Positions 7,587 to 20,360 of a stretch of DNA of 21,277 nucleotides are shown one piece after another. Each line of letters starts with the position of its first letter. Position 1 is the first letter of the stretch. Made by a program: the position numbers and the translations under genes. A model generated the notes under the pieces. The model searched no databases and had not been told where the DNA came from. It was given only the letters and a program-made list of their open reading frames with translations. Where the stretch lies: positions 1 to 21,277 of IMG/VR virus record IMGVR_UViG_3300042382_000100; one strand, 5' to 3'. Origin of the DNA: a virus.

Positions 7587-8033
7587 ATGGCAGCAATCAA
7601 CGAGATAACAGGCGATTCTATACAGACTCGCATGAAGGGTAAAACCTTTGATGACAATTACGACAAAATAGACAGAACAGTAAGATTAGAAGAAAAGAAA
7701 GACGAGCAAGAAGACGATTTAGTAACAATGAAAGCTGACTTCCTAGAACGATGGAATCTTAGTGGCGAAGAAGGCGAAAAGGTTTGGCAAGAAAAGCTAA
7801 CCATGATGTACAGACAAGGCACTGTATCGTTGCCTTATGTTCGTGAAGACTACAAGCCCTATCAGTCAATGATTGATGGTCGCATGATAGAGGGCAAGAA
7901 AGCCCATAGAGAGCATCTAAAGCGTAACAACTGCATAGAGGCAGGTGATATGCCTATAAAGAATCCAGAAAGACCCAAGGATAACTTGAAAGAGCATATT
8001 GCTAGAGAAGTTTACAACAAATTGCGTTATTAA
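7587..8033 (+). CDS. Conserved small phage protein with two recurring motifs
   Basis: 148 residues; the ATG lies two bases after the previous stop and has little ribosome-site sequence, so coupled translation is likely. Residues 1-30 (INEITGDSIQTRM ... YDKIDR) match a short motif that opens many small uncharacterised phage proteins. Residues about 85-122 (PYQSMIDGRMIEGKKAHREH, then LKRNNCIEAGD) match another recurrent phage motif, DG-x-x-I-x-x-x-x-x-HREHLKRN, here without the zinc-ribbon cysteines sometimes associated with it. Between them is an acidic, probably helical linker (EEKKDEQEDDL). It looks like a fusion of two small-protein themes. Function is unknown; a structural-module location is all that can be said. 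Confidence 0.66.
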   Translation: MAAINEITGDSIQTRMKGKTFDDNYDKIDRTVRLEEKKDEQEDDLVTMKADFLERWNLSGEEGEKVWQEKLTMMYRQGTVSLPYVREDYKPYQSMIDGRMIEGKKAHREHLKRNNCIEAGDMPIKNPERPKDNLKEHIAREVYNKLRY

Positions 8034-8046
8034 CAAGGAGCAACAA

Positions 8047-8403
8047 ATGGCAAAAGTTTCAAATTTAACAGGTTCAGGTATCGCTGGTGGTGCTGCACAA
8101 TCTGTAGTTGGTTATGTATCATTAGCTCAAACAGCTAGTGGTACTGCACAAGGCGGTCAAACAGTTGTAAGTGACATCGTTCAATACACAACATCTACAT
8201 CTAACTACGGCCCTACATTGTCAGCCACAGCAGCACCTGGCGACACAGTAACTATCGTAAACGGTTCAGCTAACACAATCAAAGTATGGCCAGCATCAGG
8301 CTTTTCAATTGATGGTGGTACAGCAGACGCTGCGGTAACTCAAACAACATTAGTTACTAAACAATATGTTTCACTAGGTAACGGTAACTGGGTAACGCTA
8401 TAA
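8047..8403 (+). CDS. Beta-rich putative capsid decoration or head-fibre protein
   Basis: 118 residues. I chose the ATG at 8047 because AAGGAG lies at 8035-8040 and MAKVSNLTGSGIAGG looks like a natural N-terminus; upstream extension to a TTG would overlap the previous gene. The sequence is nearly all Gly/Thr/Ser/Ala/Val with no Cys, and ends ANTIKVWPASGFSIDGG ... YVSLGNGNWVTL. The N-T-I-x-V-x-P-x-x-G-x-x-I-(D/N)-G-x-x-A pattern is common in small virion-surface or fibre-associated phage proteins. Its place just before the scaffold and coat genes favours a head decoration or head-fibre protein. This is inference; a fibre accessory is the alternative. Confidence 0.62.
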   Translation: MAKVSNLTGSGIAGGAAQSVVGYVSLAQTASGTAQGGQTVVSDIVQYTTSTSNYGPTLSATAAPGDTVTIVNGSANTIKVWPASGFSIDGGTADAAVTQTTLVTKQYVSLGNGNWVTL

Positions 8404-8409
8404 ACAACC

Positions 8410-8430
8410 GACACATAACAACAATGTGTC
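8410..8430 (+). promoter_or_regulatory. Perfect 7-bp hairpin after the 118-residue gene
   Basis: GACACAT at 8410-8416 pairs exactly with ATGTGTC at 8424-8430 around a 7-base loop. It begins six bases after the stop codon. It is followed by a run of seven A, not T, so it is not a standard + strand terminator. It may shield the 3' end of the upstream mRNA, mark an RNA-processing site, or be part of the regulatory leader with the direct repeats that follow. The role is unproven. Confidence 0.45.
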
Positions 8431-8431
8431 T

Positions 8432-8495
8432 AAAAAAATCAGTTTTGTATACATATAAATAAAATATGTACAAAAAAATCAGTTTTATATACATA
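8432..8495 (+). repeat. Two 24-bp direct repeats in the scaffold leader
   Basis: Copies at 8432-8455 and 8472-8495 begin AAAAAAATCAGTTTT and end TATACATA, and differ at one base (G at 8447, A at 8487). Their start-to-start distance is 40 bp, close to four helical turns, so both would face the same side of the DNA. The second copy runs straight into the ribosome site of the scaffold gene. I see no good sigma-70 -35/-10 pair. A tandem promoter for a phage or modified polymerase, or a protein-binding site, are the plausible roles. Confidence 0.7.
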
Positions 8496-8505
8496 AGGAA
8501 GCAAA

Positions 8506-9537
8506 ATGGAAAACCAGACTACTCTGGATGAGCCAATTAGCCTAAGAGATACAATTGAAAACGCTATTGAATCAACAGAATCAGCAGTAACAGAAAATAC
8601 GACCTCACAGGACGCTGTAGAAAGCGATAAAACTTCTCGCCCTAGGGATGAGTCAGGTAAATTCGCTAAATCCTCTCAAAACGCTTCAAAAGAGCTTACA
8701 GAGGCATCTGATGACAATGTTGTAGAAAATGATACAAATGTAGCAGAAATAACTACAAAACCTCGTCCTAGTTCTTGGAAAAAGGATTATGAAGAGCATT
8801 GGGGTAAGTTAGACCCAACTTTGCAGGATTATATTCAACAAAGGGAAGCTGATTACGCTAAAGGCGTGTCAACTTACAAGAATCAATGGGACATGGCTCA
8901 ACCAGTAATGGAAAGCTTGCGTCAATTTGAACCTTTGTTACAACAATATGGCGTAGCTCCGCAACAATGGATTACGCAGCTAGGTAATGCTCATGCCAAA
9001 TTGGTTATGGGTACACCTGAGCAAAAGATGCAAACCTTTCAACAATTAGCTAATGACTACGGTATTAACTTAGGCGCTGTAACTGGCCAAACAGGTTACG
9101 ATCCACAGTTCTCACAATTAGCTCAAGAGTTGGCGCAAATAAAGAATCAATGGTCAAGCTTTCAAAGTTCGCAAGAACAATTAGAGCAAGCCCAATTGCA
9201 GAATGAGATTTCGTCATTTAAAGATGACAAACCTTATTTTGAGGAAGTTCGTGAAACCATGGCTGGACTACTCCAAAGCGGAATGGCAAACGACCTTCAA
9301 TCAGCTTATGACAAAGCTATCCGATTAAACGATGATGTATTTCAGAAAGTAAGTGCTGAACAGGCGCATAAATCTGAAGCAGCTCAACGAGAAAAGGTAG
9401 CAGCCGCAAAAGCAAAGGTACTTTCACCTAAGTCAACAACGCCTACAGCGTCAATGTCTAGTGGTGGTAAGTCCGCAAGTTCCGCTAGAGATGCAATTAT
9501 GCAAGCTTTTGAACAGCACTCTAGTGGTTTAATCTGA
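8506..9537 (+). CDS. Scaffold protein
   Basis: 343 residues, ATG preceded by AAGGAA at 8495-8500. Scaffold proteins direct coat assembly inside the procapsid and leave before or during DNA packaging. The evidence is fourfold: an acidic, low-complexity N-terminus (residues 1-80) containing RDESGKFAK; the segment RPSSWKKDYEEHWGKLDP and LQDYIQQREADYAKGVSTYK (about residues 87-125), recurrent in podovirus scaffolds; a long Gln-rich, helical, largely coiled-coil middle; and a basic Ala/Ser-rich C-terminus (AAAKAKVLSPKST) of the type that binds coat. It lies immediately upstream of the coat gene, the canonical place. No protease domain is seen. Confidence 0.86.
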   Translation: MENQTTLDEPISLRDTIENAIESTESAVTENTTSQDAVESDKTSRPRDESGKFAKSSQNASKELTEASDDNVVENDTNVAEITTKPRPSSWKKDYEEHWGKLDPTLQDYIQQREADYAKGVSTYKNQWDMAQPVMESLRQFEPLLQQYGVAPQQWITQLGNAHAKLVMGTPEQKMQTFQQLANDYGINLGAVTGQTGYDPQFSQLAQELAQIKNQWSSFQSSQEQLEQAQLQNEISSFKDDKPYFEEVRETMAGLLQSGMANDLQSAYDKAIRLNDDVFQKVSAEQAHKSEAAQREKVAAAKAKVLSPKSTTPTASMSSGGKSASSARDAIMQAFEQHSSGLI

Positions 9538-9558
9538 CAATAAATAAGGAGTGACATT

Positions 9559-10554
9559 ATGGCTTTCGCCAATTCAACCGTGTCAGACATTATTGCAACT
9601 ACCATCCAAAGTCGTAGTGGCAAACTGGCTGATAATGTAACATTAAACAACGCAGTATTAGATCGTTTACGCAAGCGTGGCAATGTACGCCCATTCTCTG
9701 GCGGTAATGTGATTTTAGAAGAAATCATGTATAACGACAGCAATACAAACAACACAAACTCATACAGCGGTTATGAAACTCTGAACATTGCGCCTAACAG
9801 CCCAATTTCAGCAGCTCAATTCTCTATCGCTCAATATGCGTCTGCTGTTACCATCTCTGGCTTGGAAATGTTGCAAAACAGTTCTAAAGAGGCAATCATT
9901 GACTTGTTAGAAGGTCGTGTACAAGTTGCTGAAGGTCAATTGATGAATCGTATCCAAACTGACATCTACGGTGACGGTACTGGTAACGGTGGTAAAAACT
10001 TAACTGGTTTGGCTGCTGCTGTTGCAGATAGTCCATCTACTGGTGTTTACGGTGGTATTAACCGTGCAACATGGTCATTCTGGCAAAACCAAGCTTTCTC
10101 TGGCGTAACCAATGGCGGTGCTGCTGTTTCTGCTGCTAACATTCAATCTTACATGACTCAACTAGCTATTAAATTAGTTCGTGGTCAAGATAAGGCTGAT
10201 TTGATTGTAGCTGACAACAACTACTACTCACTATATGTAAACTCATTGCAAGCTATCCAACGCGTAACTTCAGTTGATGAAGGCGCTGCTGGTTTCGCAT
10301 CATTGAAATTCTACGGTGGTGGTACATCTGCCGATGTAGTTTTAGGTGGTGGTATTGGTTCTCAAGCAACTGCAAACCACATGTGGTTCTTGAACACTAA
10401 CTACATCTACTTCCGTCCTCATACAGACCGTAACTTTGCCCCTATCGGTGGCGAGCGTCAATCTGTAAACCAAGACGCTGTAGTTAAACTAATCGGTTGG
10501 GCTGGTAACTTAACTAGCTCTGGTCCACAATTCAGTGGCGTTCTTAAGGCTTAA
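9559..10554 (+). CDS. Major capsid protein (HK97-fold type)
   Basis: 331 residues with a strong AAGGAG at 9546-9551, fitting a highly expressed product. It follows the scaffold gene directly. Features seen: an N-terminal arm with a short helix (STVSDIIATTIQSRSGKLAD), an N-LRKRGNVRPFSGG region, the long spine-helix region SKEAIIDLLEGRVQVAEGQL, and the TGVYGGINRATWSFWQN stretch (about residues 158-175) that is typical of one large clade of phage coat proteins. The C-terminal part has the usual FLNTNYIYFRPHTDRNF segment and ends with a Gly/Ser/Leu-rich strand. Length is within the normal range for uncleaved HK97-fold coat proteins. No prodomain or maturation protease is seen. Confidence 0.92.
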   Translation: MAFANSTVSDIIATTIQSRSGKLADNVTLNNAVLDRLRKRGNVRPFSGGNVILEEIMYNDSNTNNTNSYSGYETLNIAPNSPISAAQFSIAQYASAVTISGLEMLQNSSKEAIIDLLEGRVQVAEGQLMNRIQTDIYGDGTGNGGKNLTGLAAAVADSPSTGVYGGINRATWSFWQNQAFSGVTNGGAAVSAANIQSYMTQLAIKLVRGQDKADLIVADNNYYSLYVNSLQAIQRVTSVDEGAAGFASLKFYGGGTSADVVLGGGIGSQATANHMWFLNTNYIYFRPHTDRNFAPIGGERQSVNQDAVVKLIGWAGNLTSSGPQFSGVLKA

Positions 10555-10565
10555 GGGGAAATAAC

Positions 10566-10856
10566 ATGGCATATTCAGTAACCCCACTTGCTGGGATTGA
10601 TTTAGTTGACACCGTAACAGCAGTAGAAATTGCTGCTGGCTCACCTGTAAACGCTTTACTTGGTACTCAAGTATGGGGTTCAGACGGTCGTCGTTATGTT
10701 TTTGCAAAAGCAAGTGATTCTATTGCAGCATCAGATACAACTTGCTCTATAGATGCAACTACATTTGCAGCAACTAATGTTGGCGGTACATACGATTCAC
10801 CAGCAACAGCAATGGTTGTTGGCGATTACGGTTGGTTCAGCGAAGCATCAGTGTAA
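10566..10856 (+). CDS. Small capsid-associated protein downstream of coat
   Basis: 96 residues, ribosome site AAGGGGAA at 10553-10560. Ala/Thr/Val/Ser-rich with a predicted mostly beta fold: GIDLVDTVTAVEIAAGSPVN, LLGTQVWGSDGRRYVFAK, then a terminal MVVGDYGWFSEASV. I have no firm family name; similar small proteins are common immediately after phage coat genes, where they are usually annotated as hypothetical or decoration proteins. It is the last gene before a strong terminator and so shares the high-expression coat transcript, which suits a stoichiometric head component. Function is inferred from this position only. Confidence 0.66.
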   Translation: MAYSVTPLAGIDLVDTVTAVEIAAGSPVNALLGTQVWGSDGRRYVFAKASDSIAASDTTCSIDATTFAATNVGGTYDSPATAMVVGDYGWFSEASV

Positions 10857-10860
10857 TCTA

Positions 10861-10892
10861 AAAGACTCTCACCTCTTCGGAGGTGGGTTTCT
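10861..10892 (+). terminator. Rho-independent terminator with UUCG loop after the coat module
   Basis: CACCTC (10870-10875), TTCG loop (10876-10879), GAGGTG (10880-10885), extended by a T-G pair and a C-G pair (10869/10886 and 10868/10887). It is followed by TTTCT and preceded by AAAG. The C(UUCG)G tetraloop is exceptionally stable. The U run is short, so partial read-through into the tail genes is expected. Confidence 0.82.
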
Positions 10893-10942
10893 AGGTAGTT
10901 TTCATTTCGAGAGCTATCTACAAACCCCAAACCACTTTGGAG
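10892..10942 (+). promoter_or_regulatory. Two further hairpins leading into the next ribosome site
   Basis: TAGGTAG (10892-10898) pairs with CTATCTA (10914-10920) with one G-U pair around a 15-base loop. Then CCAAA (10927-10931) pairs with TTTGG (10936-10940) around CCAC. The second stem contains part of the ribosome site GGAG (10939-10942) of the gene starting at 10949, so it could lower its translation. The stems are short and AT-rich; their effect is inferred. Confidence 0.4.
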
Positions 10943-11543: not shown

Positions 11544-12461
11544 ATGGCAACAACTCTCTTGCAATTAGTGCAACAAGCATCAGCCGAGATGGGCTTGGCT
11601 ATCCCCAATGCGGTGGTAGGCAATACAGCGGCAGATGTTACCCAACTTTATTATTTAATTAATGCGGCAGGTAACGAAGTTGCGAGAGAGTACCCATGGG
11701 AAGCTCTAAACACAGAATACGATTGGTATTCACAATACTCTGAATCAGATGGTGCTATCGTGTATGGCGCTACCGTCATTACAGGTGTTGATCCTGCTAC
11801 TGTAGCGTTTATCAATGCGGCTGGCGCAACTAACTTCCAAGTGCAAGGTGAAGGTGTCATTCAAAGCACTGCTGTGGTGTCTGCTACTGGAACTACCGTT
11901 ACAATCAATAGTGCTGCAACTAGCGATGGTTCAGGCAATTATGTATTTGGTCAAGTTATGTATGACTTGCCTACAGGCTTTGACCGTATTACTGATCGTA
12001 CACAATACGACAAATCTAAACGCTGGGAGATGTTAGGCCCTGAAACACCACAACAATGGCAATGGCTCAAGTCTAGCTACATTTCAACTGGCCCTCGTAT
12101 TCGTTGGCGTATCATGGGTCAGAAGTTTCAAATATGGCCACTTACATCTACTAACGAATACTTAAGCTTTGAGTACATCTCAACAAACTGGGCAACATCT
12201 GCTACAGGCACAACTCAAGCGCAATTCTTTGCTGATACTGACACTTGTATTTACCCAAACCGTTTAATGGTTTTGGCGCTCAAAAAGAAATACTTTGAAA
12301 TAAAAGGTTTTGATACATCATCATTCCAGCGTGATTATGATATGCAACTTAACATCGCTAAAGCTAACGATGCAGGTTCTGCTACACTATCACTAGCACC
12401 AAGAACAGCCAATGTCCTAATTGGTTGGGAGAACATTCCAGACGCTAACTACGGAGCTTAA
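11544..12461 (+). CDS. Head-tail adaptor / tail tubular A-like protein
   Basis: 305 residues, ATG after GAGGAATAAT. This class docks under the portal and links it to the tail nozzle (T7 gp11 or P22 gp4 role). The helical start TTLLQLVQQASAEMGLAIPN and the ADVTQLYYLINAAGNEVARE segment, with YPWEAL at about residue 50, are typical of adaptor proteins. The middle is an Ala/Thr/Gly/Val-rich beta insertion (about residues 70-130). The C-terminal part carries LPTGFDRITDRTQYDKSKRW, then WLKSSYISTGPRIRWRIMG, QKFQIWP, and a helical ending LMVLALKKKYFEIKGFDTSS. It is followed two bases later by the gp10-like tail gene, the usual order. Confidence 0.82.
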   Translation: MATTLLQLVQQASAEMGLAIPNAVVGNTAADVTQLYYLINAAGNEVAREYPWEALNTEYDWYSQYSESDGAIVYGATVITGVDPATVAFINAAGATNFQVQGEGVIQSTAVVSATGTTVTINSAATSDGSGNYVFGQVMYDLPTGFDRITDRTQYDKSKRWEMLGPETPQQWQWLKSSYISTGPRIRWRIMGQKFQIWPLTSTNEYLSFEYISTNWATSATGTTQAQFFADTDTCIYPNRLMVLALKKKYFEIKGFDTSSFQRDYDMQLNIAKANDAGSATLSLAPRTANVLIGWENIPDANYGA

Positions 12462-19606: not shown

Positions 19607-20360
19607 GACGCACTTTGTGTTGCCTGATGTCCAGGCTAAAGATGGTAATGACTTTACATTCCTAACCTGCATAGGTAAATACCTTGTAGACAAAAAGCCT
19701 GATGTAATTATATGTATAGGGGACTTCGCTGATATGGAGTCCCTTTCTTCTTATGATGTGGGTAAAAAGTCATTTGAAGGTCGTAGCTACCAAAAAGATA
19801 TTTTGGCTGCTAGAGAGGCTATGGATGCCCTTCTACAGCCTATATATGACTACAACAATCAAGCTAAAAGTTTTAAGCAAAAGCAATACAAACCTCGCAT
19901 GGTTTTAACCCTAGGTAATCACGAAGACCGTATTAATCGTGCTATTAACGAGGATAGGAAGCTAGACGGCCTTATCTCCATTGATGACTTGCCTTACCAA
20001 GATTGGGAGGTTATCCCTTTCCTAGAAGTGATAGTGATTGACGGTATAGCGTATGCTCACTACTTTACATCGGGTGCTATGGGCAGACCTATTGGCTCTA
20101 GTGCAGCATTACTATCTAAAAAGCACATGAGTTGTTTTGCTGGTCATCAACAAGGCAGACAAATCTCTTACGCTATGAAAGCTAACGGCCAAGAGATGAC
20201 AGCCATTATATGTGGGTCATGTTACGAGCATAATGAGGACTACTTAGGCGCTCAAGGTAACAATCACTTTCGTGGGTGCTATATGCTATACGATGTAGAG
20301 GATGGCCGTTTTGACGAATTGCCACTAACACTCAAATATCTTAAGAGTAAGTATGCTTAG
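19581..20360 (+). CDS. Calcineurin-like metallophosphoesterase
   Basis: 259 residues from the ATG at 19581; an in-frame ATG at 19560 would add seven residues but lacks a ribosome site and overlaps the preceding gene more. The metal-binding motifs are in family order (numbered from the longer start): DVQ at 23-25 where DxH is usual, GDFAD at 54-58, GNHED at 119-123, a lone His in YAHYF at 167, and GHQQG at 195-199 in place of GHxH. The fold fits a two-metal phosphoesterase acting on phosphomono- or diesters. Gln at the DxH and GHxH positions makes activity or metal choice uncertain. Such genes are common in phages; the substrate is unknown. The stop codon lies inside the next terminator's stem. 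Confidence 0.84.
   Translation: MSFLTKPTKTHFVLPDVQAKDGNDFTFLTCIGKYLVDKKPDVIICIGDFADMESLSSYDVGKKSFEGRSYQKDILAAREAMDALLQPIYDYNNQAKSFKQKQYKPRMVLTLGNHEDRINRAINEDRKLDGLISIDDLPYQDWEVIPFLEVIVIDGIAYAHYFTSGAMGRPIGSSAALLSKKHMSCFAGHQQGRQISYAMKANGQEMTAIICGSCYEHNEDYLGAQGNNHFRGCYMLYDVEDGRFDELPLTLKYLKSKYA

Follow-up and report, generated by a model that had tools for sequence, protein, structure and literature searches.

A phage virion takes hundreds of capsid subunits, all made from a long late transcript. The question raised by this locus is what the gap ahead of the scaffold and capsid genes does, since the initial annotation had noticed a hairpin and direct repeats in it and suspected a tandem phage-specific promoter or a binding site that controls these genes. 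The DNA analysed (hereafter the window) is a virus record of 21,277 bases, in which the portal gene, a putative scaffold gene, the major capsid gene, a 96-aa gene and the tail and lysis genes follow one another in one direction. The capsid cassette consists of:

8506–9537, + strand: putative scaffold gene, 343 aa (position ahead of the major capsid gene; all-helical, low-confidence model)
9559–10554, + strand: major capsid gene (phrog_9953, major head protein)
10566–10856, + strand: 96-aa gene, the last of the cassette (open reading frame)

The scaffold label rests on gene position, because none of the 20 members of the scaffold protein set had a scaffold family in PHROGs, the window protein had no match in Pfam, and its predicted structure, although all-helical, was of low confidence (pTM 0.27). 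The grouping of portal, major capsid and scaffold genes in related podovirus modules is consistent with the excerpted text of PMC10386132. The nearest named phages of the capsid protein were BUCT555, Mx8 and ppBjS10J-1 (52–54% identity). The window DNA from 8000 to 10600 had no match in the phages collection, and a host or prophage search of GTDB genomes with the capsid protein gave 29 pattern-matching stretches, none of which was confirmed. The small gene ahead of the gap (7999–8403 in the window) is highly variable, with about 37 to 97% identity among close relatives; the window version had no tblastn match in L013, L014 and L016, yet the scaffold genes of these three are nearly identical to that of L070.

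Hairpin units in the gap ahead of the putative scaffold gene

The gap was confirmed to comprise 102 bases, between the TAA at 8401–8403 and the ATG at 8506. It contains the following elements:

8407–8446, + strand: repeat unit 1, 40 bp, composed of hairpin 1, an A-tract and CAGTTTT (sequence, self-comparison and unit alignment)
8410–8430, + strand: hairpin 1, GACACAT-AACAACA-ATGTGTC, 7 bp, perfect (sequence and folding)
8432–8455, + strand: first copy of the 24-bp direct repeat (repeat search)
8447–8498, + strand: repeat unit 2, composed of hairpin 2, an A-tract, CAGTTTT and ATATACATAAGG, reaching the Shine-Dalgarno sequence (register of the 52-nt unit of relatives)
8450–8470, + strand: hairpin 2, TACATAT-AAATAAA-ATATGTA, 7 bp, perfect, A-T rich (folding and copy comparison)
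8472–8495, + strand: second copy of the 24-bp direct repeat (repeat search)
8495–8499, + strand: Shine-Dalgarno sequence AAGGA of the scaffold gene (read from the sequence)

The perfect 7-bp hairpin and the two 24-bp repeats, with one difference (G/A) and a spacing of 40 bp, were found as the initial annotation had described them, and the second copy indeed adjoins the ribosome site, extending into AAGGA. When the window was shuffled 100 times by dinucleotides, no such match appeared. The description was right but incomplete, as it had overlooked the second hairpin. The true repeat is larger than 24 bp, being a 40-bp tandem unit (8411–8450 and 8451–8490, 80% identical), each copy of which is a hairpin followed by AAAAAAATCAGTTTT.

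Folding of the + strand of the gap was more stable than that of shuffled sequences (z −3.2, 300 shuffles), also when the ATG was included (z −2.8, 200 shuffles). The two 27-nt hairpins of the window differ at 11 positions. Four of the differences lie in the stems, where they form exactly two compensating pairs, so that all seven pairs are kept; in a simulation, four random stem changes kept all pairs with a chance of 0.0097 when G-U was allowed and of 0.0023 when only Watson-Crick pairs were counted. We rejected a terminator as the role of the hairpins, because they lead into A-tracts with no T-run and no intrinsic terminator-like site was detected on the + strand of the gap. In Rfam 15, no match in the window exceeded the gathering score, and the one sub-threshold match lies outside both 8404–8505 and 10857–10937 (the region of the downstream RNA described below). 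Among the papers listed by the literature searches, none dealt with the gap element.

Distribution and variation of the unit among relatives

A search of IMG/VR with the capsid protein gave 164 related stretches, from which 80 loci were retained, and the pre-scaffold sequence was compared in those that include it. A set of close relatives carries a single unit before the scaffold gene (ATCGACA..TGTCGAT, an A-tract, CAGTTT and AACACAAGG), and in other close relatives, without the unit, the stop codon almost directly precedes the ribosome site. Scanning the whole of IMG/VR with a unit-core pattern returned 28 stretches, 13 of them before this scaffold gene and 15 unrelated and without the hairpin; a second pattern, made from the 3ʹ part of the unit, returned 16 stretches (14 in the clade described next, 2 unrelated) and yielded L133. 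The scaffold genes were then placed in a DNA tree of 35 rows (protein identity of 50% or more; too-short rows and those with no upstream stretch were excluded). The unit was present in 14 of the 17 rows of a single clade with full support and in 0 of the 18 rows elsewhere, a distribution that three state changes are enough to explain. The unit is thus dispensable, being missing in 21 of the 35 rows, including three inside the clade, which counts against an RNA leader. The two-copy form was seen in the window, in L008, L010 and L011, whose scaffold sequences are identical, and in L133, whose short length kept it out of the tree. L133 represents a second, diverged two-copy allele, with 7 differences from the window over the two 52-nt units and none in the 7-bp stems.

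In relatives the unit stands only before the scaffold gene, which supports the earlier suggestion of a cis-element tied to the scaffold and capsid genes; the repeat did not turn up ahead of other late genes of the genome or its relatives, where the initial annotation had proposed to look for it.

The 11 distinct units could be aligned without gaps over 52 nt. Their invariant columns include A5, C6, A7, T21, G22, T23 and the CAGTTT motif (11/11). Stem length and outer arms are constant, and loops, bulges and the orientation of the hairpin vary: the bulge lies in the 5ʹ or the 3ʹ arm depending on the allele, and the 27-nt hairpin shared by L006 and L070 appears in L093 as its reverse complement. 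In 8 single-copy alleles, three of which share one unit, the 14 outer stem bases were identical in all 28 pairwise comparisons, with whole units differing by 0 to 31%. A covariation analysis of the 11 units in one fixed register, which ignores bulges in either arm, found one pair with a double change, and 483 of 500 shuffles scored as high. The predicted exposure of the Shine-Dalgarno sequence overlapped between alleles with and without the unit (2 of the 20 unit-less rows were not scorable). Both results count against an RNA leader, and on the second of them ribosome-site exposure was rejected as an explanation.

The two-fold symmetry, the constant length of 27 nt and the preservation of the symmetry after inversion would suit a DNA operator for a dimeric protein, from phage or host, that regulates transcription entering the capsid genes or passing through them. 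We consider such an operator improbable, as the palindrome occupies a single place per genome: the strict hairpin pattern was found in 5 of 16 records, in one place each, and a covariance model of the unit (R2), run against 31 sources, revealed no other convincing place once matches with E above 0.2 were set aside. Moreover, hairpin 2, rich in A-T, departs from hairpin 1 at 11 of its 27 positions.

In L006 (about 8480–8945; 21340–21795 in G002) and also in L088, a free-standing GIY-YIG/NUMOD3 homing endonuclease gene separates the hairpin from the scaffold gene and is flanked on both sides by similar ribosome-site sequence. Hairpins precede several endonuclease genes of T4-like phages, according to the available portions of PMC3014915 and PMC2988022. 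The latter also describes a hairpin that precedes seg43(25) in Aeromonas phage 25, as well as the mobE and segB hairpins, which sequester the ribosome binding site. Like the seg43(25) hairpin as presented there, the one studied here lies upstream of the ribosome site and leaves it uncovered. Those three hairpins stand ahead of endonuclease genes, and such a gene is absent from most alleles here. The unit could have been the leader of an endonuclease gene since lost, which would fit the hairpin lying directly ahead of that gene in L006 and L088; we regard this as highly unlikely. Relatives of the endonuclease elsewhere (L126–L128, 45–46% identical) had no such hairpin in the upstream sequence examined, on which ground the leader role was rejected, and the L006 unit is identical to the unit of L070, which has no endonuclease at the joint; an insertion beside a pre-existing hairpin is therefore the simpler explanation.

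The mean difference of the whole unit (0.165) exceeded that at fourfold-degenerate sites of the scaffold gene (0.103), which speaks against selection on the unit as a whole. Between L014 and L015, 0 of 138 fourfold sites of the scaffold gene differ but the units do so by 25%, and the upstream gene of the window had a tblastn match in L015 and none in L014. From this mosaic and from the excess of unit variation over fourfold sites we infer that the gap is a recombination joint, at which the stem is kept and the remainder turns over. The arms of a palindrome can stay alike by template switching, without selection. The hairpin may then be functionless: it would be a palindromic insertion, or a recombination joint, where the variable upstream gene meets the conserved scaffold gene, with template switching preserving the palindrome and slippage producing the second copy. 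Such neutrality, the main and a serious rival of an RNA leader although it seems to us somewhat unlikely, would fit the L014/L015 mosaic, the inverted hairpin of L093, the endonuclease gene located there in L006 and the three alleles of the clade without the unit. It fits less well with outer arms that are unchanged among alleles otherwise different, with a CAGTTT invariant in every one of the 11 units, and with the second hairpin of the window, which retains its stem through paired changes.

Promoter scores and late transcription

The lack of a good sigma-70 promoter in the gap, noted in the initial annotation, was borne out by scoring. The gap has no near-consensus −35 and −10 hexamers at a spacing of 16–18 bp, and its best score (5.29, on a hand-written matrix) is below both the mean over stretches of this phage (5.94) and the value for shuffled gaps (7.72). 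Over the 17 element-bearing contigs, including the window, the scores ranged from 4.83 to 7.01, the values of L006 and L088 being those of the endonuclease gene end and not of the unit. A tandem promoter for the scaffold and capsid genes, either of host sigma-70 or of phage-specific type and used in the manner of T7, would agree with the position before the scaffold gene and with the A-T richness, and in L005, L007, L015 and L070 TCGACA-17-GATAAA arises fortuitously from the hairpin sequence. The window, L004 and L093 do not keep these −10-like bases, other genes have no copy of the motif ahead of them, as they would with a phage-specific promoter, close relatives do without the unit, and the scores are low in comparison with the 12.05 reached ahead of the terminase gene in three of five relatives. 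The promoter once suspected here was therefore left unsupported and, by its scores, its conservation and the absence of further copies, rejected; we now give it very little probability.

The late genes run in a single direction starting at terminase. Upstream of terminase, three of five long relatives carry TTGACA-17-TAATAT (score 12.05) and a fourth carries TTGACT-17-TACCAT (10.23); the best score in the fifth, G008, was 7.23. Thus, a clear sigma-70-like promoter precedes terminase in four of the five, and it is probably the late promoter. In G003 the scaffold gene lies about 8.6 kb downstream of it, and late mRNA probably passes through the gap.

A stem with a T-run follows the promoter, ahead of terminase, in G004 (L115 16444–16472 and the next 100 bases) and also in G001, G002 and, in a weaker form, G003. 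In G004 the stem GGACTC..GAGTCC is accompanied by ATTTTTTT; the tool scan, which has a shorter loop limit, shows only the promoter. Judged by its layout, this arrangement resembles an antitermination-controlled late promoter, and it may recall the lambda late promoter with its early terminator. A T7-type polymerase family was found in 0 of 8 records, in a search that likewise gave 0 of 14 for control genomes. The open reading frames of G003 include three of at least 600 aa, all in the late region, and none of phage-RNA-polymerase size outside it. At the end of its early region, just ahead of the late promoter, G003 has a 131-aa open reading frame (11630–12025) with no Pfam or PHROGs match, which by its position is a candidate late regulator.

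The RNA behind the cassette and the reading of the gap

The gap of 80 bases that separates the 96-aa gene from the gene behind it folds into two hairpins (−29.2 kcal/mol, z −5.5), a structure more strongly conserved than the one ahead of the cassette:

10870–10885, + strand: hairpin A, CACCTC-TTCG-GAGGTG, followed by GGTTTCT (folding and alignment)
10886–10926, + strand: hairpin B, 17 pairs in the window fold and 18 in the alignment (folding and alignment)

A pattern search collected 26 distinct sequences, of which L051 and L061 were dropped, as they have a plain terminator there, and 24 were aligned. Covariation in this alignment was very strong: 12 of 23 pairs showed changes on both sides, and pairing was kept in 98.4% of 549 cells, in comparison to 90.5% in shuffles and no more than 59.7% for the slid structure; 0 of 500 shuffles attained any of the five measures. 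A model of the two-hairpin RNA, run against 48 sources, matched 15 contigs, in one place each and always in the gap behind the cassette, and reached as far as L035, L036, L038, L060 and L071. On the opposite strand the same places gave weaker matches, which are shadows of these, and a match at 20342 of the window had an E of 0.45. Among 21 chosen relatives, mostly more distant ones, the gap behind the cassette held a terminator-like stem with a T-run in 9. One of these nine, L038, has a stem followed by TTTCTAGT and is, to judge from its sequence, an intermediate form between the terminator and the two-hairpin RNA; GGTTTCT behind hairpin A of the window could be a weakened remnant of such a T-run. 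Should the upstream hairpin turn out to be neutral, the two-hairpin RNA is still a well-supported motif that has no match in Rfam.

Two systems described in excerpts of PMC5927463 offer a comparison. In the E. coli papBA mRNA, papA is protected by an intercistronic hairpin, upstream of which RNase E cuts, and between malE and malF lies a protective 3ʹ structure. As in papBA, so far as described there, the element here is a short hairpin between two genes of one transcript, ahead of the gene of a bulk product and near its start; it differs in being optional, in being duplicated and in being known from sequence alone. Similarly, 10870–10926 resembles the malE-malF element, within the same excerpts, as a stable structure that ends a segment with no real U-tract, and differs as a specific covarying two-hairpin fold.

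Given this likeness and the probable passage of late mRNA through the gap, we hold an RNA leader to be the most likely reading, and we hold it tentatively: the gap would consist of short RNA hairpin leader units, optional and here in tandem, which act on the scaffold-capsid part of the late mRNA. Counted in favour of it were the location before the scaffold gene only, the presence in 14 of 17 clade rows, the compensating stem pairs, the unchanged stems of L133, the gapless alignment of the 11 units, the constant outer stem, the one direction of the late genes with the sigma-70-like promoter ahead of terminase in four of five relatives, and the covarying RNA at the other end of the cassette. 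The leader units would lie inside the polycistronic late mRNA, transcribed through the gap from the promoter upstream of terminase. Each would combine a 7-bp hairpin with an A/U-rich stretch that stays unpaired, and the final such stretch would reach the scaffold ribosome site. Their action would likely be post-transcriptional, the hairpin setting the scaffold start apart from the upstream gene. After a nearby cleavage, the hairpin might keep nucleases away from the 5ʹ side of the scaffold-capsid segment, by way of processing or stabilisation, and the segment could then outlast its neighbours or be translated better than they are.

In T7, the scaffold and capsid genes are surrounded by phi9, phi10 and Tphi. 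As in T7, the capsid cassette here is flanked by a front element and a terminator-like rear element; unlike in T7, no promoter signature was seen in the gap, and no open reading frame of phage-RNA-polymerase size outside the late region of G003. A bolder proposal, which we consider unlikely as a whole, is that the genes for scaffold, capsid and the 96-aa protein form a separately stabilised message within a host-transcribed late mRNA, with the hairpin leader at its 5ʹ end and the two-hairpin RNA at its 3ʹ end, so that capsid dosage would be set by RNA structure and not by dedicated promoters. If the hairpins do set the share of scaffold and capsid mRNA, RNA structure would be doing the job of the T7 promoters. 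The alleles with zero, one and two units in otherwise similar genomes offer a natural series for comparison.
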